Of a stretch of 64,000 bases of DNA, positions 39,264-51,715 are shown piece by piece. Within the stretch, counting starts at the first letter, position 1, and each line of letters opens with the position of its first letter. The notes below the pieces were generated by a model. That model was given only the letters and a program-made list of their open reading frames with translations, did no database searches and had not been told where the DNA came from. Location: assembly GCF_900215325.1 (NCBI RefSeq), contig NZ_OCMS01000005.1, positions 62,001-126,000 on the forward strand, read 5' to 3'. The stretch is from Fibrobacter sp. UWB16 (lineage in GTDB: Bacteria > Fibrobacterota > Fibrobacteria > Fibrobacterales > Fibrobacteraceae). Made by a program: the position numbers and the translations under genes.

Positions 39264-41021
39264 CTAAAGAGAATTTCTGTATTTTCTCCAATCTCCGTAT
39301 TCCGAGATGTCTTTCGCCTTGCCCGCTCGGTACAGTTCGAGGACGGAACTGTCGGCTACGAATCCCGAAATAAATCTTCCGTCAATGGTTTTTACTTTCC
39401 CTATCGAGAGCGGTGCAGGAACTCGCTTGACGAACTTGCCAAAATCTTCTGCAGAAAGTCCGTAGATTTCAATGTAGAAGCTTTTGCCTTCGCCATTGGA
39501 TGCTGCAATAAGGGTTGGCTTTGGAATCGGGCCGTTCAAGGCGAGCATCTTGTACTCGGGTGCAGTTTCGGTGGCTTCGATGAAAACGGCGCGGGAAAGT
39601 TCTTCGTGAAGAGGACATCCTTTGAGGTGCGCTCCGCAAACGGCCAACGGAATTTTTGAGGCGAGATAACCTTCTACTTTCTTAGCGGCGTCGAGCAGTT
39701 TGTAGTCGTCGAATGCTTTGCCGACAAGGGTGACGCCAAATGGGAGACTTGGTGCGTTCCCGCTTTCGTTGTCGGCGTCTTCGGAGGGAATTGCCAATGC
39801 GGAATAATCCAGCAAATTCATGTAGTTGGTGTAGTACCCTAAATTCGAGTTCAGCTCGATAGGATTCTTTTCGACATCGGCGGTCTTGTAAATTGTCCCT
39901 GCGGTGGGCGTGAGCAAAAAGTCTACGGATGAAATAAGCTTGTCTGCAATTTTCTTGTAGGCTTGCAGCGAGTGGAACCCTTCGAAAACTTCAGAAGGGT
40001 GCGGGGTACGCTTGGGCGTGATAATTGATTTTGTGACCGGATGAATTTCGTCCGAGTGTTCTTCGATGAATTTCCCTACGGCGTTGTAGCGCTCGAATAC
40101 CCACGGGCCTTCGTAAAGGAGCTTCGCTGCCTTGAGGAATGGTTCGAATGGAATAATGACCTTGGTGCCGCCTGCATTTTCGAATGCTTGTACAGTCTTT
40201 TCGAAAGCTTTGCGGTAACCTTCGTTTCCAAAAAATTCCAATTTGTCCGGAACACCGAAAGTCCATTTTTCAGGGAGGCGTGCGCGATTGGCTTCGGCGT
40301 GAACCCAAGGTGCTTCGCGGGAATATGGGTCTTCGCTATCTTCGCCTTGTGCAATGTTCAATACTGTTTGAGCGTCTTTTGTGTCGAGTGCAAAAATGCT
40401 TACGCAATCAAGGCTTCGGCAGGCCGGAATGACTCCGCTTGTGCTGAGCAAGCCTCGAGTCGGCTTTACGCCAACCAGTTTGTTGAAGGCGGCGGGAACG
40501 CGCCCAGAGCCTGCGGTATCTGTACCGAGAGAAAAACTGCATAATCCGTAAGCGAGCGCTGCGGCAGAACCGCTGCTGCTTCCGCCAGAGATGTATTCGG
40601 GTGCGAACTTGTTCGGGATGGAACCGTAAGGACTGCGTACGCCGACAAGCCCTGTAGCGAACTGGTCCATGTTCGTTTTACCAAGCGGTATGGCGCCTGC
40701 TGCGATGAGGCGGTTTACGACGAACGAAGATTTTTGCGGCTTGTAAGCGTAAGCGGGGCAGGCTGAGGTGCTTTCTAGACCTTCGAAATCAATGTTGTCC
40801 TTGATGGCGAAAGGGATGCCGAATAAAGGCTTGTCCGCAGGAATGGTTTTGCAGTTTTCGAGCGGTTCCAAGTATTTTTCGAGAGATTCTCGAGAAAGTC
40901 GGCTGATCCAAATCTGCGATGGCGCTTTGTCCATTTCTTTAAGGATGTTCTCGATGACCGTGCGCGGAGTTGTTGTTCCGTTACGGTAAGCGTTTAGCAG
41001 AGTTGAAATTCTAAGTTCCAT
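39264..41021 (-). CDS. atzF: Allophanate hydrolase
   Basis: Hydrolyses allophanate, the product of urea carboxylation or carboxyguanidine deimination, finally giving ammonia and CO2. 585 residues, matching two-domain AtzF. The amidase-signature domain (about 1-440) contains the catalytic Lys in GIPFAIKDNI, the Ser cluster GGSSSGSAAALA and the nucleophile region GTDTAGSGRVPAAF. The C-terminal decarboxylase-type domain (about 465-585) includes EIYGLSAEDFGKFVKRVPAP and GKVKTIDGRFISGFV. AAGGAGG precedes the start, 11 bases after the ROK gene stop, so repressor and hydrolase form one operon divergent from the transport/carboxylase operon. Confidence 0.93.
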   Translation of the reverse strand: MELRISTLLNAYRNGTTTPRTVIENILKEMDKAPSQIWISRLSRESLEKYLEPLENCKTIPADKPLFGIPFAIKDNIDFEGLESTSACPAYAYKPQKSSFVVNRLIAAGAIPLGKTNMDQFATGLVGVRSPYGSIPNKFAPEYISGGSSSGSAAALAYGLCSFSLGTDTAGSGRVPAAFNKLVGVKPTRGLLSTSGVIPACRSLDCVSIFALDTKDAQTVLNIAQGEDSEDPYSREAPWVHAEANRARLPEKWTFGVPDKLEFFGNEGYRKAFEKTVQAFENAGGTKVIIPFEPFLKAAKLLYEGPWVFERYNAVGKFIEEHSDEIHPVTKSIITPKRTPHPSEVFEGFHSLQAYKKIADKLISSVDFLLTPTAGTIYKTADVEKNPIELNSNLGYYTNYMNLLDYSALAIPSEDADNESGNAPSLPFGVTLVGKAFDDYKLLDAAKKVEGYLASKIPLAVCGAHLKGCPLHEELSRAVFIEATETAPEYKMLALNGPIPKPTLIAASNGEGKSFYIEIYGLSAEDFGKFVKRVPAPLSIGKVKTIDGRFISGFVADSSVLELYRAGKAKDISEYGDWRKYRNSL

Positions 41022-41032
41022 AAAACCTCCTT

Positions 41033-42031
41033 TTAGGATTCCAGTAGGCGATCCATTGCAAGGCTGTAGAGTCCTGCGAAATATTCGTTTTCGGTATTGG
41101 GCTTGATGATGATTCGTGGCAACTGCAAACGATTCAAATGTTTCCGCAGATGTTGAAGGATGGCTTGTTCGCTTATTTCGTTGGCGAGTCCGCCGGTAAT
41201 GACAATCTGCGCGGGGTCCAAAAATACGGTGGCGGCGACAACCAGTTGGTTGACAATGGGAGAAGCGTATTCAATGTCGCTGAATGCGGCGTTTTGACTG
41301 TTCTTGTTGAAATTGAACGGGTAGTACGAAAGTTCTCCAGCCAAATTTGAAGTCCCTCGCAAAATTTTACCATCGACGATAAAGCCTCCGGCAGGCGTGT
41401 TTCCCTTGGGGAAGAACAGCAGGGCGACATTCTTCTCGTCGCTGTTTGCTTTGGAGTAGCCTAGCGCAATCGTGTTCATGTCGTTTTCTACGATGGTCGG
41501 AATTTTGACGGCCTCTTCGATTCTTTCGGCGAGGTTGATTCCGCGAAGTTCCTTGATATCGCAGAATTCAATTATTCCGTTGTTGACGCAACCTTGCACT
41601 CCGATGACGAGGACGCCTATGCCTGATTCCTTTTTCAAGATTTTTCGGATGTTTGCAATGATGACTTCTGCTGACAGATTCTTTTCCCTAAAGGCTCCGT
41701 TTTGCTTGATGTTCCCGGCGGTATCTTGAACGCGGTAACGCAAGAATTTTCCTTCGTGGTCGGCGTGGGCGAATAGGCAAAGGGTTTTCCCTTTTTCGTG
41801 GTTGTACTGGTAGGCCATTGCGGGGCGGCCACCGCTAGAAATTCTTTGTTCGTCTTCGGCGATTTCGCCGGATACTATTAATTCGTTTAAAATGGTGCCG
41901 CATGTGACAACGCTCAATCCAGTTTCTTGAGCGAGCTCAGCCTTGGTTGCGGAGCCCAAAGTAAATAGTGCCTTTTTTATGGCTTGCTTGTTATGTTGCT
42001 TTAAATCGGCTGTCGTGTTAGTTTGTTTCAT
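41033..42031 (-). CDS. ROK-family transcriptional regulator of the guanidine/urea locus
   Basis: 332 residues. The N-terminal winged helix-turn-helix (about 10-70) reads ATKAELAQETGLSVVTCGTI. The ROK domain has ISSGGRPAMAYQYN, the phosphate-loop-like GVLVIGVQGCVNNGI, and NLAGELSYYPFNF. The zinc motif CxCGxxGC normally found after NLAGE in sugar-responsive ROK proteins is absent, so it probably senses something other than a sugar. It sits between atzF, with which it is cotranscribed, and the divergent transporter operon. The ATG at 42031 has no strong ribosome-binding site, but upstream codons give no better N-terminus. Local repression of one or both operons is inferred from position. Confidence 0.82.
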   Translation of the reverse strand: MKQTNTTADLKQHNKQAIKKALFTLGSATKAELAQETGLSVVTCGTILNELIVSGEIAEDEQRISSGGRPAMAYQYNHEKGKTLCLFAHADHEGKFLRYRVQDTAGNIKQNGAFREKNLSAEVIIANIRKILKKESGIGVLVIGVQGCVNNGIIEFCDIKELRGINLAERIEEAVKIPTIVENDMNTIALGYSKANSDEKNVALLFFPKGNTPAGGFIVDGKILRGTSNLAGELSYYPFNFNKNSQNAAFSDIEYASPIVNQLVVAATVFLDPAQIVITGGLANEISEQAILQHLRKHLNRLQLPRIIIKPNTENEYFAGLYSLAMDRLLES

Positions 42032-42135
42032 GGTTAAAAATATAATGACGGTTTGGTACTTTTGTAAAGACATTAAAAAAGTTTTTTTGAAAAATTTTTT
42101 GAATAGGTTAAAAATTTGTTTATTTGCATAAAAAT

Positions 42136-42162
42136 GGGGTTTTACATTCTGTGAAATACCCC
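42136..42162. other. Imperfect hairpin in the ROK/ABC intergenic region
   Basis: GGGGT-TTTACA / TGTGAAA-TACCCC with small bulges around TTC. No T run follows. Candidate operator for the ROK regulator, or a leader structure. The spacer has no ykkC guanidine-riboswitch motif that I can see. Confidence 0.45.
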
Positions 42163-42270
42163 TATACTTTTTAAAAGTCTTTTACAAAGTGTGGTGCTAC
42201 AGAACTGTTACAAAAACCATAAGTTCCTGAAAAATGGCGATTTTGATGAAAAAACGGCAGTTTGAAAGTT

Positions 42271-42287
42271 TTGGCACACCGTTTGCT
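42271..42287 (+). promoter_or_regulatory. Sigma-54 (-24/-12) promoter of the guanidine/urea operon
   Basis: TTGGCACACCGTTTGCT matches the sigma-54 consensus YTGGCACGrNNNTTGCW at all positions except the two after CAC; the GG and GC elements are exactly 10 bases apart. It predicts transcription starting near 42298, leaving a 29-base leader with GTGAGGA before the ATG at 42327. Confidence 0.75.
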
Positions 42288-42326
42288 ATTGGTGTTGTGA
42301 AAAGAAATCCAAAAAGTGAGGAAAAC

Positions 42327-43307
42327 ATGAATTTGAAAAAGATTCTTCTGACATGCATTGCCGTTGCTGCCGCTTCTGTATATGCTCAAAAGCCTGTGCT
42401 GAAAATCGCCTACAGTGATTGGCCGGGTTGGACGGCTTGGGAAATTGCCGACAAGAAAGGTTTCTTTAAAAAGCATGATGCCAATGTTAAACTGGAATGG
42501 TTTGATTATGGCCCGTCTATGGACGCGTTTGCTGCTAAGCAGGTCGATGCCGTTGGTGTGGCTAATGGCGATGCGATGATGATGAACGCTACGGGCGCCC
42601 GTAACTCGATTATCTTGATTAACGATTACAGTAATGGTAACGACAAGATTATTGGTGCTCCGGGAATCAACTCTGTTAAGGATCTCAAGGGCAAAAAAGT
42701 CGGTGTCGAAATTGGGTGCCTTTCTCATGCGCTTTTGATTAATGCGTTGACGAAAAATGGACTCAAGGAATCTGATATTACTTTAGTCAACATGCCGACG
42801 CATCAAGCCGTGCAGACTCTTGAAAGTGGCGAAGTTTCCGCTGTTGTTGCCTGGGTTCCGCATTCTGTAAATGCTCTCGAAGTCGTTAAAGGATCTAAAG
42901 AGATTTATACCAGCGCAAATGAACCCGGAATCATCTACGATGTCCTCGCAGTCTCTCAGGAATCGCTGATGAAAAACAAGGCTGAATGGCAGAAGGTTGT
43001 TGCCGCTTGGTACGATGTCATTGACTTCTTGAACGACCCGAAAAATAAGGATGAAGCGGTCAAGATCCTTGCGGCCCGAGTAGGTATTTCTGAAAAGAAA
43101 TATGCCACATTTATGGGCGGAACTCGATTCTTAACGGCAGAAGAAGCGTCCGCACGATTCAAGAAGGGTAGTGGCTACAGCTCCATTTATGGCTCCAGCA
43201 AAAATGTCGACGCCTTCTTTGTCAAGAACAAGGTCTACGACAAAAGCGTGAATGTCGACCGCTATATCATCCCTTCGTTTACGGAAACCTTCCTCAAGAC
43301 GAAATAA
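42327..43307 (+). CDS. ABC transporter substrate-binding protein (NMT1/TauA type), guanidine/urea-linked
   Basis: 326 residues from the ATG at 42327 (ribosome-binding site GTGAGGA). The signal peptide runs to about residue 21 (VAAASVYAQ). The mature part has the NMT1/SsuA/TauA pattern: LKIAYSDWPGWTAWEIADKK near the N-terminus, GKKVGVEIGCLSHALL, and YDVLAVSQESL. SBPs of this subfamily with a DWPGW motif are those found beside urea-carboxylase/guanidine genes. Captures the substrate in the periplasm for the permease and ATPase downstream. First gene of the operon controlled by the sigma-54 promoter. Confidence 0.88.
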   Translation: MNLKKILLTCIAVAAASVYAQKPVLKIAYSDWPGWTAWEIADKKGFFKKHDANVKLEWFDYGPSMDAFAAKQVDAVGVANGDAMMMNATGARNSIILINDYSNGNDKIIGAPGINSVKDLKGKKVGVEIGCLSHALLINALTKNGLKESDITLVNMPTHQAVQTLESGEVSAVVAWVPHSVNALEVVKGSKEIYTSANEPGIIYDVLAVSQESLMKNKAEWQKVVAAWYDVIDFLNDPKNKDEAVKILAARVGISEKKYATFMGGTRFLTAEEASARFKKGSGYSSIYGSSKNVDAFFVKNKVYDKSVNVDRYIIPSFTETFLKTK

Positions 43308-43331: not shown

Positions 43332-44396
43332 ATGGTAAACCCGATTGGAATTCAAAAGCATGTTGGGAAAAAGTGGACGACTGTGCTGACTGTGCTCTCG
43401 TTCATCATTCCCCTTGCCATCTGGAGCGTGGTGAGTTACGTCCCCTTTGTATACCACCCGCTCGTCAAGGTCGTCGATGCCGGCGGAAGCATGTTTTGCC
43501 AACCGGGTGACGAAATTGAACGCAGTAACTTTGAAGAAGAGAACCGGAATCTCCTTGAGGCTAATGAAAGGCCCATGACGGGAATCCGCGTGAACCCCGC
43601 TTACCTTCCGGCACCGCACAAGGTCGCAAAAGCACTTATCACGGCTTTTATGACCGAGCCGAAGCGCGATGGTGATGTCTGGTTTTACGAAAGTATTCTG
43701 CATTCAATCAAGATTGTGTTCCTTGCGTTTTTGCTTTCGAGCTTGATTGGCGTACCTCTAGGTGTTGCGTGTGGCGCTGTCCCGTTCTTTGAAAAGCTGA
43801 CAGGTCCGTTTATCGAATTTTTCCGGTATTTCCCGGCGCCTGTGTTTGGAGCTTTGGCGGTTGCCATCCTCGGCATCAATGATGCTCCTAAGATTGCGAT
43901 TATCATCATCGGTACATTCTTTCAGCAAGTTCCGATGCTGTGCGCCACGACACGTCGCGTAGATTCGACTCTCATCGAAGCGGCCCGTACTTTGGGAACA
44001 TCGCCGATGCGTATTATGTTCAAGGTTGTATTGCCCGATATCGCTCCGAAGATGTACAAGGATATGCGCATTCTTTTGGGTTGGGCTTGGACTTACCTCA
44101 TTGTCGCAGAAGTGGTGGGAACAAGTTCTGGCATTACCTGGTTTATCAATCAGCAGGCGAAGTACCGTAACTTTGACAATGTCTATGCCGCCATCATTAT
44201 CTTGGGCGTCATTGGTCTTGGTTGCGATATGATCCTCAACTTCCTCGGCCGAGATTTCTTTGCCTGGGAAGGTGGCCGTGTGGGTGTCAGCTCCAAGATC
44301 AAGAGAGAAATTCTTGCTCCAAAGGATAATGTTTTCACGTTCTGCCTCACACCTGAAGAAAAGGCGCTCAAGGAGAAGTATCATGGAAGGCCGTAA
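43332..44396 (+). CDS. ABC transporter permease (TauC/SsuC type), guanidine/urea-linked
   Basis: 354 residues. One N-terminal helix is followed by a periplasmic segment of about 70 residues, unusually long for the family, and then the core of five or six helices. The coupling (EAA) loop is [40 protein letters not shown] is typical of nitrate/taurine-class permeases. A cytoplasmic tail of about 45 residues overlaps the ATPase gene by 14 bases, indicating coupled translation. Confidence 0.88.
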
Positions 44397-45231
44397 GGAT
44401 TGTTTCGAAGATTACATTTTGGAAGCCTGCCATATTGTCAAGGATTTCGAAAAGACTTCTGGAAAAGGGATGCATCGTGTTTTGGATGATATTTCTTTTG
44501 GCGTGCGTCGTCGCGAGTTCCTTTCGATCATTGGCCCTTCTGGTTGTGGAAAGTCAACGCTTATCCGCATTGCGGCAGGGCTCGAAACAGCAACTCGTGG
44601 AGAGTTCAGGCTTGATGGAAAGATTGTTCGTGGTACTGGTGCCGAAAGAGGAATGGTCTTTCAGAAGTATTCGCTTTTCCCGTGGCTTTCCGTAAAGAAG
44701 AATGTCATGTTCGGGCTGGAATCTACAGGGCACGATAGCGATGATGCCGAAGAGATTGCTGCACAGTGGCTTGAAATTGTTGGACTTGAAAAGTATGGCG
44801 AATATTTCCCGAAGCAACTTTCTGGCGGTATGCAGCAGCGAGTTGCCATTGCAAGAGCTTTGGCCCCGCAGCCGCGCGTTCTCTTGATGGACGAACCGTT
44901 CGGAGCGCTTGATGCACAGACGAGAGCGCAGATGCAAAAGTATCTGCTTGAAGTTTGGAAGAATATCGATATCACCATCATTTTCGTGACGCACGATCTT
45001 GATGAAGCCGTATTCCTTTCGGACCGCATTTTGACTTTGCAAGCTAATCCCGGAAAGGTCAAGGAATTGGTCGAAGTCAACATTCCTCGCCCGAGAAACA
45101 AGGAAACCCTTACTTTGCCTGAGTTCGTCGAAACACGCAAATACATCGAAGAACTCATTCGCCCGCCCAAGGTAAACGAAATCGCTGAAGAAGAATTCAA
45201 CATCGTGAACATGGTCGGGAAACAACTTTAA
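44383..45231 (+). CDS. ABC transporter ATP-binding protein (TauB/SsuB type), guanidine/urea-linked
   Basis: 282 residues from the ATG at 44383. Walker A is GPSGCGKST, the Q-loop is FQKYSLFPW, the signature is [17 protein letters not shown], and Walker B is [14 protein letters not shown]. The H-loop is [10 protein letters not shown]. It powers the preceding permease. The chosen start overlaps the permease stop by 14 bases and has AAGGAG upstream; the longer upstream open frame is shadow sequence. The first DUF1989 gene starts 15 bases downstream. Confidence 0.92.
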
Positions 45232-45246
45232 AAAACAGGAGCTAAT

Positions 45247-45963
45247 ATGTCTGAATCTAAAGTCCTTTGCAAACAAGTGATTGCCGGTGGCTGGAACTAC
45301 TCTCGAATCGTCAAGTGCGGCCAGAAAATCCGACTCACTGACATTGAAGGTGGTGCAAATGCCTCTTTGATGTGCTATAACGCTCACAATTTTACGGAAC
45401 GCTTTAACTTGGGCGATACCCTGAAAATCCAGCACATTTGCAGAATTGCAAAGAACTGCTGCCTTTATGGCGACATGGGCCGTATCTTGCTGAGCGTTGT
45501 CGAAGATACTGTGGGCTGGCACGATCCGCTTTGCGGCTGTACGCATGCCTCGCTGATCAAGGAACGCTTTGGCGAAAAGGATTATCAGAGCGCCCACAAC
45601 GATTTTTACCGCAATGGTTACGACTCTTTGCTTGTTGAAATTGGCAAGCACGGCATGACCAAGAGAGACTTTACGGAACTCGTCAACTTTTTCAGCAAGG
45701 TCGTGGTGACTTCTGACGGAAAAATGACTTTTGTAGAGAATAACTCTAAGCCGGGTGACTATGTGGAACTGCGTGCCGAGATGGATACTTTGATCGTTAT
45801 CGATACGGGTATGCATCCGCTGAATCCGAGCAAGGAATACTTGCGTAAGCCTGTGAAGGTTGAACTTATCACTTGCGATATCGCCGGTGCCGAAGATCCT
45901 TGCTTTACCTGGTGCCCGGAAAACGGTCGCGGCTTTATCAACACGGCAAACTACAACTTGTAA
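45247..45963 (+). CDS. DUF1989 urea carboxylase-associated protein 1 (carboxyguanidine deiminase subunit-like)
   Basis: 238 residues. DUF1989 proteins encoded beside such carboxylases include the two subunits of carboxyguanidine deiminase, which convert carboxyguanidine to allophanate. Shared family segments are KIRLTDIEGGANASLMCYN, RFNLGDTLKIQ, GDYVELRAEMDTLIVIDTGM and PLNPSKEY. Its metal-site loop (DTVGWHDPLCGC) is shorter and different from the DTCGxHDTLGSxCS of the next two genes, so it probably represents the second subunit type. RBS CAGGAG. Function by family and context. Confidence 0.85.
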   Translation: MSESKVLCKQVIAGGWNYSRIVKCGQKIRLTDIEGGANASLMCYNAHNFTERFNLGDTLKIQHICRIAKNCCLYGDMGRILLSVVEDTVGWHDPLCGCTHASLIKERFGEKDYQSAHNDFYRNGYDSLLVEIGKHGMTKRDFTELVNFFSKVVVTSDGKMTFVENNSKPGDYVELRAEMDTLIVIDTGMHPLNPSKEYLRKPVKVELITCDIAGAEDPCFTWCPENGRGFINTANYNL

Positions 45964-45973
45964 GAGGTCTATC

Positions 45974-46630
45974 ATGTTTACGAAGTATTTGGAAAGTACG
46001 CTCAAGGAAGAAGACGCTTGTTATGTTGAAGATGTGGCTGCCGGAAAGGGGTGGTTGCATTTGATTAAGAAAGGTCAGATTTTCCGCATTTTGGACCTTA
46101 AAGGGAACCAGGCTGTTGATACGCTGTTCATCAATGCGAACGACCCGTCGGAACGCTACAGTGTTCAGCAGACGGTGCAAAGACAAGCGAACTGCTTGGT
46201 CGGTGTTGGCACGAAGCTTTATTCCAACGATGATAACGCTATGCTTACGGTTGTTGCGGATACTTGTGGCGACCACGATACGCTTGGGAGTGCCTGCTCT
46301 TGCGAAAGTAATACTTGCCGTTATTCGCTCGACAAGCGTTATATGCATGCCTGCCGTGAATCGTTTTTGAAGGTGTTGCTCGAAACACCGAATCTGGATA
46401 AGCGCGATCAGGTGAACAACTTGAACTTTTTCATGTATGTTCCGTTTGACGAAAAGGGAAACCTCAACTTTGCTGATGGTATTTCTTCGCCGGGAAAGTA
46501 TGTGGAAATGCGTGCCGAAATGGATGTGCTCGCGGTTGTGAGCAACTGCCCGCAGCTGAACAACCCCTGCAACGCTTACGATCCGACGCCGGTAAGGATG
46601 ATTATTTGGGATTCAAAGGAGTCCGTATGA
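45974..46630 (+). CDS. DUF1989 urea carboxylase-associated protein 2 (carboxyguanidine deiminase subunit-like)
   Basis: 218 residues from the ATG at 45974 (AGAGG upstream). It has GQIFRILDLKGNQAVDTLFI, NANDPSERYS, the metal-loop motif ADTCGDHDTLGSACS, KRDQVNNLNFFMYV and SPGKYVEMRAEMDVLAVVSN. It is close in sequence to the following gene, whose start codon overlaps its stop (ATGA). Probable partner of the 45247 product in deiminating a carboxylated guanidino compound. Confidence 0.87.
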   Translation: MFTKYLESTLKEEDACYVEDVAAGKGWLHLIKKGQIFRILDLKGNQAVDTLFINANDPSERYSVQQTVQRQANCLVGVGTKLYSNDDNAMLTVVADTCGDHDTLGSACSCESNTCRYSLDKRYMHACRESFLKVLLETPNLDKRDQVNNLNFFMYVPFDEKGNLNFADGISSPGKYVEMRAEMDVLAVVSNCPQLNNPCNAYDPTPVRMIIWDSKESV

Positions 46631-47268
46631 ATTCGAAGCTTCTTGAAAGCCCGCGTTGCGTAGAAGATGCGGTATCGGATGTGACCGTCCTTGCCGGGGA
46701 CGGTTACATGCTGCCCCTCAAAAAGGGACAGATCCTCCGCTTGGTTGACGTAGAAGGCAATCAGTCTGGCGATGTGCAGATTTATAACGCGAATGACCCG
46801 ACAGAACGCTACAATGCGAACAACACCATTACGGCTCAGGCGAATACGATGATTGAGCTTGGTACGGTTATCCGTAGCAACTGCGGAAACGCTATGCTTA
46901 CAGTGATTGCGGATACTTGCGGAGAACACGATACGCTTGGAAGCGGATGCTCTGCGGAAGGTAATGTTGTGCGTTATACGAATAAGACTCGTTATATGCA
47001 CAGCTGTCGTGATACTTTTGTGCGTACGCTTGAAAACTATGGCTTGAGCAAGCGCGATCAGACTTGCAACTTGAACTTTTTCACGAAGGTCATCTTGGAT
47101 GACAAGGGACGCCTTGAATTTGCCGATGGTATTTCGGGCCCCGGAAAATACATTGAACTTCGCGCCGATATGGATGTTCTGTTCTTGCTTTCGGATTGCT
47201 CGCAGTTGAACAATCCTTGTAACGATTACAATCCGACTCCAATTCGACTTTTGGTTTTTGACAAATAA
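46627..47268 (+). CDS. DUF1989 urea carboxylase-associated protein, third copy
   Basis: 213 residues from the ATG at 46627, overlapping the previous stop by 4 bases, with AAGGAG upstream. It parallels its neighbour throughout: GQILRLVDVEGNQSGDVQIY, NANDPTERYN, ADTCGEHDTLGSGCS, KRDQTCNLNFFTKV, GPGKYIELRADMDVLF. A tandem duplication followed by divergence is the simplest origin. Known guanidine loci usually have two DUF1989 genes, so the third may widen substrate range or form an alternative complex. Confidence 0.87.
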   Translation: MNSKLLESPRCVEDAVSDVTVLAGDGYMLPLKKGQILRLVDVEGNQSGDVQIYNANDPTERYNANNTITAQANTMIELGTVIRSNCGNAMLTVIADTCGEHDTLGSGCSAEGNVVRYTNKTRYMHSCRDTFVRTLENYGLSKRDQTCNLNFFTKVILDDKGRLEFADGISGPGKYIELRADMDVLFLLSDCSQLNNPCNDYNPTPIRLLVFDK

Positions 47269-47282
47269 TTTGGGATACCGCT

Positions 47283-48113
47283 ATGGACAACTACGTTTAT
47301 CGAAACTTCACTAGGGAATCGCTTGGTAAAGCCTACGACAACACCAGTGCTGTTAAGAATAGTTCTGAAATTTTGGAAGGCTTCAATGCTCGTAGCGCAG
47401 AAATTTCAAAGCAGTTCCAGGATACCATGAATTTGCATTATGGCATGGATTCTAGGGAACGTATCGATTACTTTAGTTGTGGTAAGAAAGATGCTCCGCT
47501 TTTTATCTTTATTCATGGCGGGTATTGGCAAATGCGCTGCAAGGATACTTTCCGCTTTTTAGCGAAGGGGCCTATTGCTCAAGGATTCGATGTGGCTAGT
47601 GTCGGATACCCGCTTGCTCCGAGCGCAAGTATTGGTGAGATTGTTGCCAGTATCCGTAATGCCCTCTATTTTTTGCGCTGTCATAGTGATGTCCTTGGCT
47701 TTGACAATTCTCGTATTTATGTGTCGGGCTGGTCGGCTGGGGCTCATCTTGCCGTAAGCGTACTTGATGAACCCGGCGTATGCGGGGCGCTTGCCATCAG
47801 CGGTATTTATGACTTGAAACCTATTTCGCAATGCTTTTTGAACGATAAACTTCAGCTTACCGAGAATGAGATTCTCTTGTACAGTCCGCTCCGTAGGCCG
47901 TTTGTCAAAAAGCCGATTGCCGTAGTTGTTGGTGCAAATGAACTTCCGGAACTTCGTAGGCAAAGTGCCGAATTTGCGATGCACCGCGCCGAAGAAGATA
48001 TTCCTGGTTCGTTCAATTTGCTTTCGAACCATAACCATTTTACGATCCTCGAGGAACTTGAAAATCCCGAAGGATCCCTGACGCAACTTCTTGTACAATT
48101 GATTAAATACTAA
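47283..48113 (+). CDS. Alpha/beta hydrolase, kynurenine-formamidase-like
   Basis: 276 residues. The oxyanion-hole motif FIHGGYWQ matches the HGGxW signature of arylformamidases and related esterases. The nucleophile elbow is VSGWSAGAHLA (GxSxG form GWSAG). The catalytic Asp/His region lies near VVVGANELPE and SNHNHFTILEEL. It lies between the DUF1989 genes and the carboxylase, with short spacings, so it is part of the operon. It is not a standard member of guanidine or urea carboxylase clusters. It may hydrolyse an amide or formamide-type intermediate or a substituted substrate; the exact reaction is unknown. Confidence 0.8.
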   Translation: MDNYVYRNFTRESLGKAYDNTSAVKNSSEILEGFNARSAEISKQFQDTMNLHYGMDSRERIDYFSCGKKDAPLFIFIHGGYWQMRCKDTFRFLAKGPIAQGFDVASVGYPLAPSASIGEIVASIRNALYFLRCHSDVLGFDNSRIYVSGWSAGAHLAVSVLDEPGVCGALAISGIYDLKPISQCFLNDKLQLTENEILLYSPLRRPFVKKPIAVVVGANELPELRRQSAEFAMHRAEEDIPGSFNLLSNHNHFTILEELENPEGSLTQLLVQLIKY

Positions 48114-48124
48114 AGGAGATAGCC

Positions 48125-51100
48125 ATGTTCAACAAAGTGCTTGTAGCAAACCGTGGCGAAATCGCTTGTCGCATTATTCGTACCCTGAAAGAGATGGGAG
48201 TAAAATCTGTTGCCGTTTATTCTGATCCGGATGAAACCGCAGCTCATGTATTGATGGCTGATGAAGCTGTTCGTATTGGCCCTGCTCCTGCCAAGGACAG
48301 TTACCTCAATGTCCCGGCCATTTTGGAAGCCATTAAGTCGACTGGTGCCGAAGCGGTCCACCCTGGTTACGGTTTCTTGAGCGAAAACGCAGATTTTGCA
48401 AAGACTCTAGAAGATAATGGAATTGCTTTTATCGGGCCGACTCCGAAGCACCTCATTGAATTTGGCCTGAAACACCGTAGCAAGGAACTTGCACAGGAAT
48501 TTGATGTTCCGCTTGTTCCCGGTTCAGGTCTTTTGGAAAGCTTGGATGATGCTATTGCGCATTCCAAGGAAATCGGCTATCCGGTAATGCTCAAGAGTAC
48601 CGCAGGCGGTGGTGGTATTGGCATGAGCATTTGCCACAGCGAAAAGGAACTCGTTGAAAGCTTTGACCGCATCAAGAGACTGAGTGAAAACAACTTCAAG
48701 AATGCGGGCCTCTTTGTCGAAAAGTATGTAGAACGTGGTCGTCATGTCGAAGTACAGGTCTTTGGCGATGGCGAAGGGAATGCTGTTGTGCTTGGTGAAC
48801 GTGATTGCTCTGTGCAACGCCGTAACCAGAAGGTCATTGAAGAAACGCCTGCGCCTTGCTTGCCCGAAAAGACTCGCGAAGCGCTGCATGAGGCTGCTTT
48901 GCGACTTGCGCAGGGTGTTGCTTACCGTTCTGCCGGTACGGTCGAATTTATATACGACGCACCGAGCGACCGATTCTATTTCCTCGAAGTCAATACGCGT
49001 TTGCAAGTTGAACACGGTGTCACCGAAACGGTTTATGATGTTGATTTGGTGCGCTGGATGATTGAACTTGCGGCTGGAAATCGTCCCTTTGAAATTGGCG
49101 CAAAGTTTGTGCCGCATGGGCATGCCATGGAATTCCGCGTTTACGCCGAAGATCCGGGAAAGAATTTCCGCCCGAGCAGTGGTCTTTTGACGGAAGTAAA
49201 CTTCCCGGAAGGCATCCGCGTTGATACATGGGTTTCTCGTGGCACGGAGGTCAGCGCATTTTACGATCCGCTTTTGGCAAAGGTCATTGTCGCGGGCAGT
49301 GACCGTGAAGATAATATCGAAAAGGCAAAGAAGGCTCTCGCCGAAGTCAAACTTTATGGCTTTGAAACGAACATCAAGCTTTTGCGCGATGTGCTTGAAA
49401 TGCCGGATTTTGTATCGGGAAAGGTTTCGACTTGGATCTTGAACGATTACAAATATCGTGACAGGATTTTTGAAGTTCTCGCTCCGGGCTTGCAGACGAC
49501 AATTCAGGATTATCCGGGTCGCTTAAAGTATTGGGATGTGGGCATTCCTCCTAGCGGTCCTATGGATAATTACAGCTTTAGGCTTGCGAACAAGATTGTC
49601 GGTAATGCCGAAAATGCGGCGGGAATCGAAATGACTCATTCGGGATGTACGCTTGCGTTCCATACGGATGCCGTGATTGCATTTACGGGTGGTGATTTCC
49701 CGGCGACTGTAAACAATATGCCGTGCCTGAAGAATACGCCTGTCGAAGTTCACGATGGGGATGTTCTCAAGTTCGGAGTTTCTAAGGCTGGACAACGCTG
49801 CTATTTGGCGATTCGCGGTGGTATTGATGTTCCTGATTATTTAGGTAGTAAGTCGACATTTACACTGGGCGGCTTTGGTGGCCACGGTGGACGTGCTTTG
49901 ACTGCAGGAGATATCCTCCACATTGGAAACGATGCTTCTGGTGAAACGGTTATTCCGGCGGCAACGGCGCTTCCGTCGATTGGGACCGAATGGGAAATTG
50001 GTGTGATGTATGGCCCGCATGGCGCTCCGGATTACTTGACTGCCGAAGACATTCAAGAATTCTTTGCAGCAACGTGGGAAGTGCATTACAACTCTTCTAG
50101 AACGGGTATTCGCTTGATCGGTCCGCAGCCCAAGTGGGCAAGACCCGATGGTGGCGAAGCGGGACTCCATCCCTCGAATTTGCACGATAATGCGTATGCC
50201 GTAGGAACTGTGGACTTTACGGGTGATATGCCGATTATCTTGGGCGTTGATGGCCCGAGCCTTGGTGGTTTTGCTTGCCCGGTGACGATTGTTTCTGCAG
50301 AACTATGGAAAATGGGACAGTTGCGCAGTGGCGACAAGGTTCGCTTTATTCCGCTTTCTGTAGAAGATGCTGAAAAGATTCGAATTGCACGCGAAGAAAT
50401 GCTTGCTGCTCCAGATAAGGTATCGAAACCGGTTCCGGCGCTTGTCTCCGCTCCAGTAACGTCTCCAATTATTTCGGAATACAACACTGATTCTGAAATG
50501 GAACATATTGTTGTTCGTGCCGACGGCGATGATAACGTGCTTGTCGAATTTGGCCCGGCGATTATCGATTTGCGTCTCCGCTTTACGGCTCACGCATGGA
50601 TGCTCGCTGTTAAGGAACGTTTTGCGGATGTCCTCATTGATGTTACTCCGGGTATTCGCTCTATACAAATTCACTACGATATCAAAAAGATTCGTCAGAA
50701 GGATGTTTTGGAACGCCTCTGGGATTTGGCAGAACACCTGAGAAAGAACAAGCTGACGAAGGTCCCGACAAGAACCATTTATCTCCCGCTTTCGTGGGAT
50801 GACCCGCAGACTCGTGTTGCCATCGAAAAGTATGTGACGACGGTTAGACCGGGCGCTCCTTGGTGCTGCCCCAACAATATTGAATTCATTCGCCGAGTCA
50901 ATGGCCTTGATTCCATTGATGATGTCAAGCGGATTGTGTTTGATGCGGACTATCTCGTGATGGGTCTTGGGGATGTTTACCTTGGTGCTCCTGTGGCAAC
51001 TCCGCTCGATCCGAGGCATCGTCTGGTTACGACCAAGTACAACCCGGCTCGTACATGGACGCCTGAAAATGCGGTGGGCATTGGTGGCGCTTACATGTGC

Positions 51101-51715
51101 GTTTATGGAATGGAAGGTCCGGGCGGTTATCAATTTGTCGGCCGTACGGTGCAAATGTGGAACCGCTTTAAAAAGACGAGTGATTTCCCGTTGCCGTATC
51201 TGTTGCGGTTCTTCGACCAGATTCGCTATTATGAAGTGAATGCGGATACGCTTTTGCAAATGCGAAAGGACTTTATCGCAGGCAAATTCCATGTCACTGT
51301 AGAGAACAGTTCCTTCGATATCGAGGAATACGAAAAGTTCTTGAAGGACAATGCGACATCTATTTCTGCATTCGAAGAAAAGCGAACCAAGGCTTTCGAA
51401 GAAGAAAAGGAACGCTGGATTGCAAATGGCCAGTTCACATTTGAAAGTCACAGCGCAGAGTCTGCTCCTGAAGCCGAAATTACGCTAGCCGAAGGAGAAG
51501 ATGGCGTTTACAGCCCTGTTGCTGGCTCTCTTTGGAAGCTGATTGTCGCAAAGCCGGGAACATCGGTAAAGGAAGGTGATACTCTCGCCATCATTGAAAG
51601 TATGAAGACCGAAATTCCTGTGATTGCAACATGCGGAGGCATTGTGTCGCAGATTTTTGTGAAGGAATCCTCTGAAGTTAGAGCTGGGCAGTGCCTAGCA
51701 TCCGTGAAATCATAA
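48125..51715 (+). CDS. Biotin-dependent urea/guanidine carboxylase
   Basis: 1,196 residues, the full length of bacterial urea-carboxylase-type enzymes. The biotin carboxylase (about 1-450) has KVLVANRGEIACRIIRT, MLKSTAGGGGIGMS (ATP-grasp loop) and EVNTRLQVEHGVTE. A carboxyltransferase related to KipA/KipI follows: LQTTIQDYPGRLKYWDVGIP, GPMDNYSFRLAN and GGIDVPDYLGS, and after about 785 an AHS1-like part with VEFGPAIIDLRLRF. A C-terminal biotin carrier carries ESMKTEI (Lys1161 biotinylated). Uses ATP and bicarbonate. The DUF1989 genes make guanidine the more likely substrate than urea, since many such enzymes are guanidine carboxylases; not proven here. RBS AAAGGAGA. Confidence 0.92.
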   Translation: MFNKVLVANRGEIACRIIRTLKEMGVKSVAVYSDPDETAAHVLMADEAVRIGPAPAKDSYLNVPAILEAIKSTGAEAVHPGYGFLSENADFAKTLEDNGIAFIGPTPKHLIEFGLKHRSKELAQEFDVPLVPGSGLLESLDDAIAHSKEIGYPVMLKSTAGGGGIGMSICHSEKELVESFDRIKRLSENNFKNAGLFVEKYVERGRHVEVQVFGDGEGNAVVLGERDCSVQRRNQKVIEETPAPCLPEKTREALHEAALRLAQGVAYRSAGTVEFIYDAPSDRFYFLEVNTRLQVEHGVTETVYDVDLVRWMIELAAGNRPFEIGAKFVPHGHAMEFRVYAEDPGKNFRPSSGLLTEVNFPEGIRVDTWVSRGTEVSAFYDPLLAKVIVAGSDREDNIEKAKKALAEVKLYGFETNIKLLRDVLEMPDFVSGKVSTWILNDYKYRDRIFEVLAPGLQTTIQDYPGRLKYWDVGIPPSGPMDNYSFRLANKIVGNAENAAGIEMTHSGCTLAFHTDAVIAFTGGDFPATVNNMPCLKNTPVEVHDGDVLKFGVSKAGQRCYLAIRGGIDVPDYLGSKSTFTLGGFGGHGGRALTAGDILHIGNDASGETVIPAATALPSIGTEWEIGVMYGPHGAPDYLTAEDIQEFFAATWEVHYNSSRTGIRLIGPQPKWARPDGGEAGLHPSNLHDNAYAVGTVDFTGDMPIILGVDGPSLGGFACPVTIVSAELWKMGQLRSGDKVRFIPLSVEDAEKIRIAREEMLAAPDKVSKPVPALVSAPVTSPIISEYNTDSEMEHIVVRADGDDNVLVEFGPAIIDLRLRFTAHAWMLAVKERFADVLIDVTPGIRSIQIHYDIKKIRQKDVLERLWDLAEHLRKNKLTKVPTRTIYLPLSWDDPQTRVAIEKYVTTVRPGAPWCCPNNIEFIRRVNGLDSIDDVKRIVFDADYLVMGLGDVYLGAPVATPLDPRHRLVTTKYNPARTWTPENAVGIGGAYMCVYGMEGPGGYQFVGRTVQMWNRFKKTSDFPLPYLLRFFDQIRYYEVNADTLLQMRKDFIAGKFHVTVENSSFDIEEYEKFLKDNATSISAFEEKRTKAFEEEKERWIANGQFTFESHSAESAPEAEITLAEGEDGVYSPVAGSLWKLIVAKPGTSVKEGDTLAIIESMKTEIPVIATCGGIVSQIFVKESSEVRAGQCLASVKS

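Follow-up and report, generated by a model that had tools for sequence, protein, structure and literature searches.

Nitrogen regulation of the NifA or NtrC type combines -24/-12 promoters with upstream activator sites and a GAF-AAA-Fis activator, the NifA site being TGT-N10-ACA. DUF1989 is a family that we take to be the same as COG3665. In the parts of PMC12316311 drawn on here, sigma-54 control is predicted for COG3665 genes in Proteobacteria, 59% of 102 being named urea carboxylase, and sigma-54 control of chaperones is likewise predicted in Planctomycetota and Bacteroidota. The parts of PMC12186494 used here describe operons under the control of a guanidine riboswitch, with genes for an ABC importer, carboxyguanidine deiminase, guanidine carboxylase and allophanate hydrolase. 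The Fibrobacter locus analysed here resembles the latter in all four components but differs in having no riboswitch and in having a sigma-54 promoter, a divergent ROK regulator, a third DUF1989 gene and an alpha/beta hydrolase. With the former, it shares sigma-54 promoters at urea carboxylase-associated genes, although Fibrobacter belongs to another phylum, and our proposal for it extends to an upstream site, an activator resembling NifA and a broader regulon; the main text of PMC12316311 never names Fibrobacter or guanidine.

The window, i.e., the whole 64-kb stretch of DNA that was analysed, spans positions 62001-126000 of contig C5 in the 3.56-Mb, 9-contig assembly of Fibrobacter sp. UWB16 (G000). 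An earlier sequence-only reading had placed a near-consensus sigma-54 promoter in front of a guanidine/urea operon, and this part stands; it had missed an activator-type site and an inverted repeat further upstream, which are included in the following list of features.

39264-41021, minus strand: allophanate hydrolase (TIGR02713, 664.6 bits, cut-off 511.05)
41033-42031, minus strand: ROK-family regulator, divergent (PF00480)
42142-42156, no strand assigned: putative UAS (activator-binding site) TTACATTCTGTGAAA, some 130 bases before the -24 element
42166-42190, no strand assigned: 25-bp inverted repeat ACTTTTTAAAAGTCTTTTACAAAGT, putative operator, aligned in 13/13 family orthologues
42272-42287, plus strand: sigma-54 -24/-12 promoter TGGCACACCGTTTGCT, predicted transcription start 42298
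42327-43307, plus strand: ABC transporter substrate-binding protein (SBP), operon gene 1, SsuA/uca-like but under both curated cut-offs, start taken from orthologues
43332-44396, plus strand: ABC transporter permease (BPD_transp_1)
44260-45231, plus strand: ABC transporter ATPase (ORF limits, real start probably near 44380)
45247-45963, plus strand: DUF1989 protein UAAP1, candidate carboxyguanidine deiminase subunit (TIGR03425, 298.6 bits, cut-off 205.95)
45974-46630, plus strand: DUF1989 protein UAAP2, candidate carboxyguanidine deiminase subunit (TIGR03424, 305.5 bits, cut-off 284.7)
46627-47268, plus strand: third DUF1989 paralogue, UAAP2-like (TIGR03424, 261.7 bits, below the cut-off of 284.7)
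47283-48113, plus strand: alpha/beta hydrolase
48125-51715, plus strand: urea carboxylase family protein, predicted guanidine carboxylase, with Asp697 (K. lactis 1330) and Asp950 (K. lactis 1584)

According to the parts of PMC11410670 consulted, guanidine carboxylases are marked by Asp at K. lactis positions 1330 and 1584. When the window carboxylase was aligned to the K. lactis-type chain 5i8i, whose numbering was taken as K. lactis numbering, Asp was found at both diagnostic positions (residues 697 and 950), and the enzyme is therefore predicted to act on guanidine. The gene content expected of the guanidine carboxylase pathway, two DUF1989 subunits with an allophanate hydrolase nearby, is also found. 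The operon is thus predicted to encode a guanidine carboxylase by published sequence criteria, with guanidine as the probable substrate. Since orthologues of gene 1 occur in just 13 of the 111 family genomes, the operon is accessory. Its first gene is carried at 99% identity by a Fibrobacter succinogenes MAG, and F. intestinalis ATCC 43854 (L052) is a cultured strain that has the operon. The SBP is 69-74% identical between Fibrobacter and four Victivallales loci (L053-L056), with similar gene order, which makes transfer between gut phyla probable. The third DUF1989 paralogue is also present in these Victivallales loci and was not seen in more distant ones.

The gap between the ROK and SBP genes (42032-42326, 29.8% GC) has the 295 bases first reported for it and is only partly conserved in the orthologue alignment, the conserved blocks being the -24/-12 element, the inverted repeat and the ribosome-binding region. 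The longest ORF of gene 1 starts at 42234, which would put the promoter inside the gene; this start was rejected because the conserved start in the alignment of the orthologues falls at 42327.

Positions 42271-42287 read TTGGCACACCGTTTGCT, in which GG (42273-42274) and GC (42285-42286) are separated by exactly 10 bases, as the sequence-only reading had it. TGGCACACCGTTTGCT is the sole exact match to TGGCAC-N5-TTGCW within the window, and its fit was equalled by none of 500 dinucleotide shuffles of the 350 bases upstream of gene 1. Genome-wide, there are 23 exact matches to this pattern and a single match to the reversed control, showing that the sigma-54 motif is strongly enriched in the genome. 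The genome also has one copy of rpoN, whose presence had been proposed as a check. The 39-base spacer between the element and the ATG at 42327 agrees with the distance originally given, and taking C42286 as -12 predicts a start at 42298 and a 29-nt leader. On these sequence grounds, we consider 42272-42287 confirmed as a predicted sigma-54 promoter. Its conservation points the same way. All 13 Fibrobacteraceae orthologues have the -24/-12 element at the corresponding position, 44-80 bases before the matched coding stretch. We also compared 24 named loci, of which 6 are from Fibrobacter and 18 from other groups. A site with at most three mismatches was found within 350 bases upstream in 15 of the 18 non-Fibrobacter loci, not all of which are full guanidine operons, several being cut contigs or the importer alone. 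Five of the 18 have sites equalled by at most 5/500 shuffles, while no site within three mismatches occurs in these 350 bases in two Armatimonadetes loci and one Leptospirales locus.

Six of the 23 exact promoters precede genes concerned with nitrogen, glutamine or amino acids, namely purF and the genes for P-II, type III glutamine synthetase, a protein like glutamate synthase (gltB-like), CTP synthase (pyrG) and an acetolactate synthase. All six promoters are preceded, at a distance of 46-165 bases, by TTACA-N5-TGTAA with no more than one mismatch, a site that differs from the TGT-N10-ACA of NifA. Two exact copies of this dyad, together with the -24/-12 element TGGCACGATTTTTGCC, precede an operon of dapF, dapL, a NifA-like activator gene and nadE. 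Exact dyads occur at 14 places in the genome, compared with 5 for the control, and dyads of the form TGTAA-N5-8-TTACA revealed no common pattern. With a weight matrix built from eleven sites, the guanidine promoter being left out, the best site upstream of that promoter is TTACATTCTGTGAAA, whose score of 13.3 was reached by 4/500 shuffles and is below that of the weakest training site (13.6). The same site lies at -129 to -133 in six of seven same-genus orthologues (L035, L036, L037, L039, L040 and L041, the second half being imperfect in L041); in the seventh (L038) the spacer is one base longer, and the matrix does not score it. The resemblance of this putative UAS to those of P-II, glutamine synthetase III, glutamate synthase, CTP synthase, purF and the NifA-like operon favours the initial proposal that control by nitrogen limitation is likely.

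We then extended the analysis to the family by searching for TTACA-N5-TG(T/A)AA followed, after 85-115 bases, by TGGCA(C/T)-N5-TTGC. This pattern was found in 71/111 family genomes, compared with 0/111 for the reversed control. The guanidine site itself matches by construction, since the gap limit and the T/A option were set after it had been seen; the match of an orthologue with a diverged promoter region (G059) is not by construction. When genomes were tallied by eye for the pattern and for an orthologue of the NifA-like activator (at least 81% identity, or a fragment at 87-89%), 69 had both, one the activator only (G015), two the pattern only (G064 and G067) and 39 neither. This co-occurrence, to which a Fisher test was applied, is subject to confounding by kinship, genome incompleteness and the presence of the pattern before the activator's own operon. 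Of the first 30 activator orthologues listed, 25 have, as judged by eye, a pattern match on the same strand within about 4 kb upstream.

The genome encodes seven strong sigma-54 activators, three of them NifA-like. The activator had been expected to be of the NtrC type, an expectation that was not borne out: none of the seven exceeds the NCBIfam NtrC equivalog cut-off of 558.6, the best score being 347.3 bits (L003) and that of candidate L004 304.3, and an NtrC orthologue was rejected as the activator. Nor is the NifA equivalog TIGR01817 reached (466 bits, cut-off 528.85), hence "NifA-like" only; the lack of any activator over either cut-off sets Fibrobacter apart from the NtrC and NifA systems. 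We favour a NifA-like protein of the GAF type (C2:1002761-1004272), the best placed of the candidates, because of its location among nitrogen genes and its signature of self-regulation. A nifH copy lies about 18 kb away from a short NifA-like protein encoded at C4:35951, which may serve nif instead. Two nifH genes exceed the curated cut-off (G000:C4:642-1457 and C4:17396-18211), and the idea that this genome is non-diazotrophic was accordingly dropped; at least one nifH over the cut-off is present in 37/111 family genomes.

Taken together, we consider it likely that the sigma-54 promoter drives the operon as part of a nitrogen-limitation regulon, through a NifA-like activator, with the ROK regulator adding local input. 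The promoter, rpoN, the site pattern, its conservation, the absence of riboswitch matches (see below) and the diagnostic residues are read from the sequence; from these we infer which activator binds, that nitrogen is the signal, what ROK does and that guanidine is the substrate. Under nitrogen limitation, the NifA-like activator (G000:C2:1002761-1004272) would bind 42142-42156 and loop to the sigma-54 polymerase, so that transcription would start near 42298. The promoter at 42272-42287 would thereby drive the genes for the ABC transporter, the DUF1989 proteins, the hydrolase and the guanidine carboxylase. The same activator would also drive the P-II, type III glutamine synthetase, glutamate synthase, CTP synthase and purF genes and its own operon, and the ROK regulator would probably supply local input via the inverted repeat at 42166-42190.

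The same promoter could instead answer to another of the seven activators, three of which are NifA-like, with guanidine or a different stress, and not nitrogen limitation, as the signal. We regard this as unlikely, although two observations besides the number of activators speak for it. The first is that exact sigma-54 sites also precede groES, htpG, clpB, dnaK and a gene for an RpoD/RpoS-like sigma factor (L012, L013, L017, L027 and L015), and the sites before the four chaperone genes indicate that sigma-54 is not used here for nitrogen only. Heat-shock genes also seem to be driven by it, for the most part with no nitrogen-type site: groES, dnaK and clpB have UAS matrix scores of at most 3.5, and the heat-shock gene htpG has a moderate score of 9.6 that was reached by 0/300 shuffles. 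The second is that the weight matrix did not find the UAS in six loci of a second genus (L042-L047), where 21 to 425/500 shuffles were as good, even though these loci retain the -24/-12 element. What argues against it is that the guanidine promoter does have a nitrogen-type site (4/500 shuffles), whereas groES, dnaK and clpB score so low. The lack of such a site in the second genus fits its lack of a close activator orthologue: the family-wide pattern is found in 0/6 of these genomes, and their best activator relative is only 48-49% identical. GTTTCA/TGAAAC words are present upstream of groES, clpB, dnaK and the sigma factor gene, and not of htpG.

Control could also be mainly local, with the ROK regulator repressing or activating through the inverted repeat and the -24/-12 element being minor or silent. 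The repeat is aligned in all 13 orthologues and is unique, being the sole match in the genome with fewer than three mismatches, and a divergent ROK gene is present in 6/6 Fibrobacter loci and 0/18 others. This conservation, uniqueness and distribution make the repeat most likely the ROK operator, as far as can be predicted, and are in line with a presumed role of ROK in local control. Mainly local control is nevertheless very improbable, since the -24/-12 element is at least equally conserved (13/13) and is also present in loci without ROK. With a single occurrence in the genome, the repeat is unlikely to be a general nitrogen activator site. As for a chance match, loose matches to TGGCAC-N5-TTGCW (two mismatches or fewer) are about as frequent in the window as chance predicts (39 versus 35), but coincidence is scarcely credible for an exact site that no shuffle equals, that is enriched 23 to 1 genome-wide and that is conserved in 13/13 orthologues.

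We found no sign of the RNA sensor of similar operons. The window has no Rfam gathering-level match, and only five unrelated chance-level Rfam matches (E 2.8-7.7) fall within 41950-42400. A guanidine riboswitch in the spacer was therefore rejected, and the earlier statement that the spacer holds no ykkC-like motif survives the model search proposed for it. With strict filters, guanidine-I and -II were found in 0/111 family genomes, and the predicted 29-nt leader is shorter than the 48-position guanidine-II model. A sensor of an undescribed kind in the 5' leader or in the gap would escape Rfam, which holds described families only, and 42032-42326 is AT-rich and partly conserved, but so short a leader, with conserved blocks that correspond to the promoter, the inverted repeat and the ribosome-binding region, leaves this with almost no likelihood.

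Sigma-54 control with a nitrogen-type site is the reading that we retain for Fibrobacter, and among its relatives such control may accompany riboswitches. Of the 24 named loci, 23 were scanned (L051 was left out), and four have a guanidine riboswitch: 1) guanidine-I in a Porticoccaceae locus (L060), and 2) guanidine-II on both strands in L062, L065 and L066, which come from one "bacterium" MAG and two Planctomycetota. The three guanidine-II regions (L062 1415-1888, L065 9572-9852 and L066 2835-3120) are divergent promoters in which each strand has a riboswitch and a sigma-54-like element. Each of the four loci has a -24/-12-like element on the upstream side of the aptamer, and its predicted start and the aptamer are 34-61 bases apart. 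The element in L060 is perfect (0/500 shuffles as good); those in L062, L065 and L066 are weaker (8, 11 and 70/500, respectively), and the near-palindromic nature of two of them (L062 and L066), together with their poorer fit, means that they could be operators. The arrangement in 4/4 loci suggests, and does no more than suggest, that sigma-54 and riboswitch are additive. It goes against the view that sigma-54 acts "instead of" a riboswitch as a general alternative, even with the weaker elements in some loci.

No earlier report of these findings was among the titles listed in our search, which covered papers outside subscription. As far as the literature searched shows, two things are new: the nitrogen site of Fibrobacter with the activator proposed for it, and the apparent stacking of sigma-54 control upon guanidine riboswitches. 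A broader scenario, which we find possible but on balance doubtful, is that in the ancestral operon two inputs gated a single transcript: the sigma-54 promoter read a shortage of nitrogen, and a guanidine riboswitch within the leader read the substrate. Fibrobacter would have kept the nitrogen input and lost the RNA sensor, with ROK in its place, and for general nitrogen regulation it would rely on a NifA-like protein, working via TTACA-N5-TGTAA, rather than on NtrC.

These findings suggest that sigma-54 control and a guanidine riboswitch can stack on one transcript, in which case guanidine genes may need both nitrogen hunger and the substrate. They also define a testable nitrogen regulon for Fibrobacter, with a predicted activator, binding site and targets, and would tie guanidine use to the nitrogen economy of a cellulose-digesting gut bacterium.
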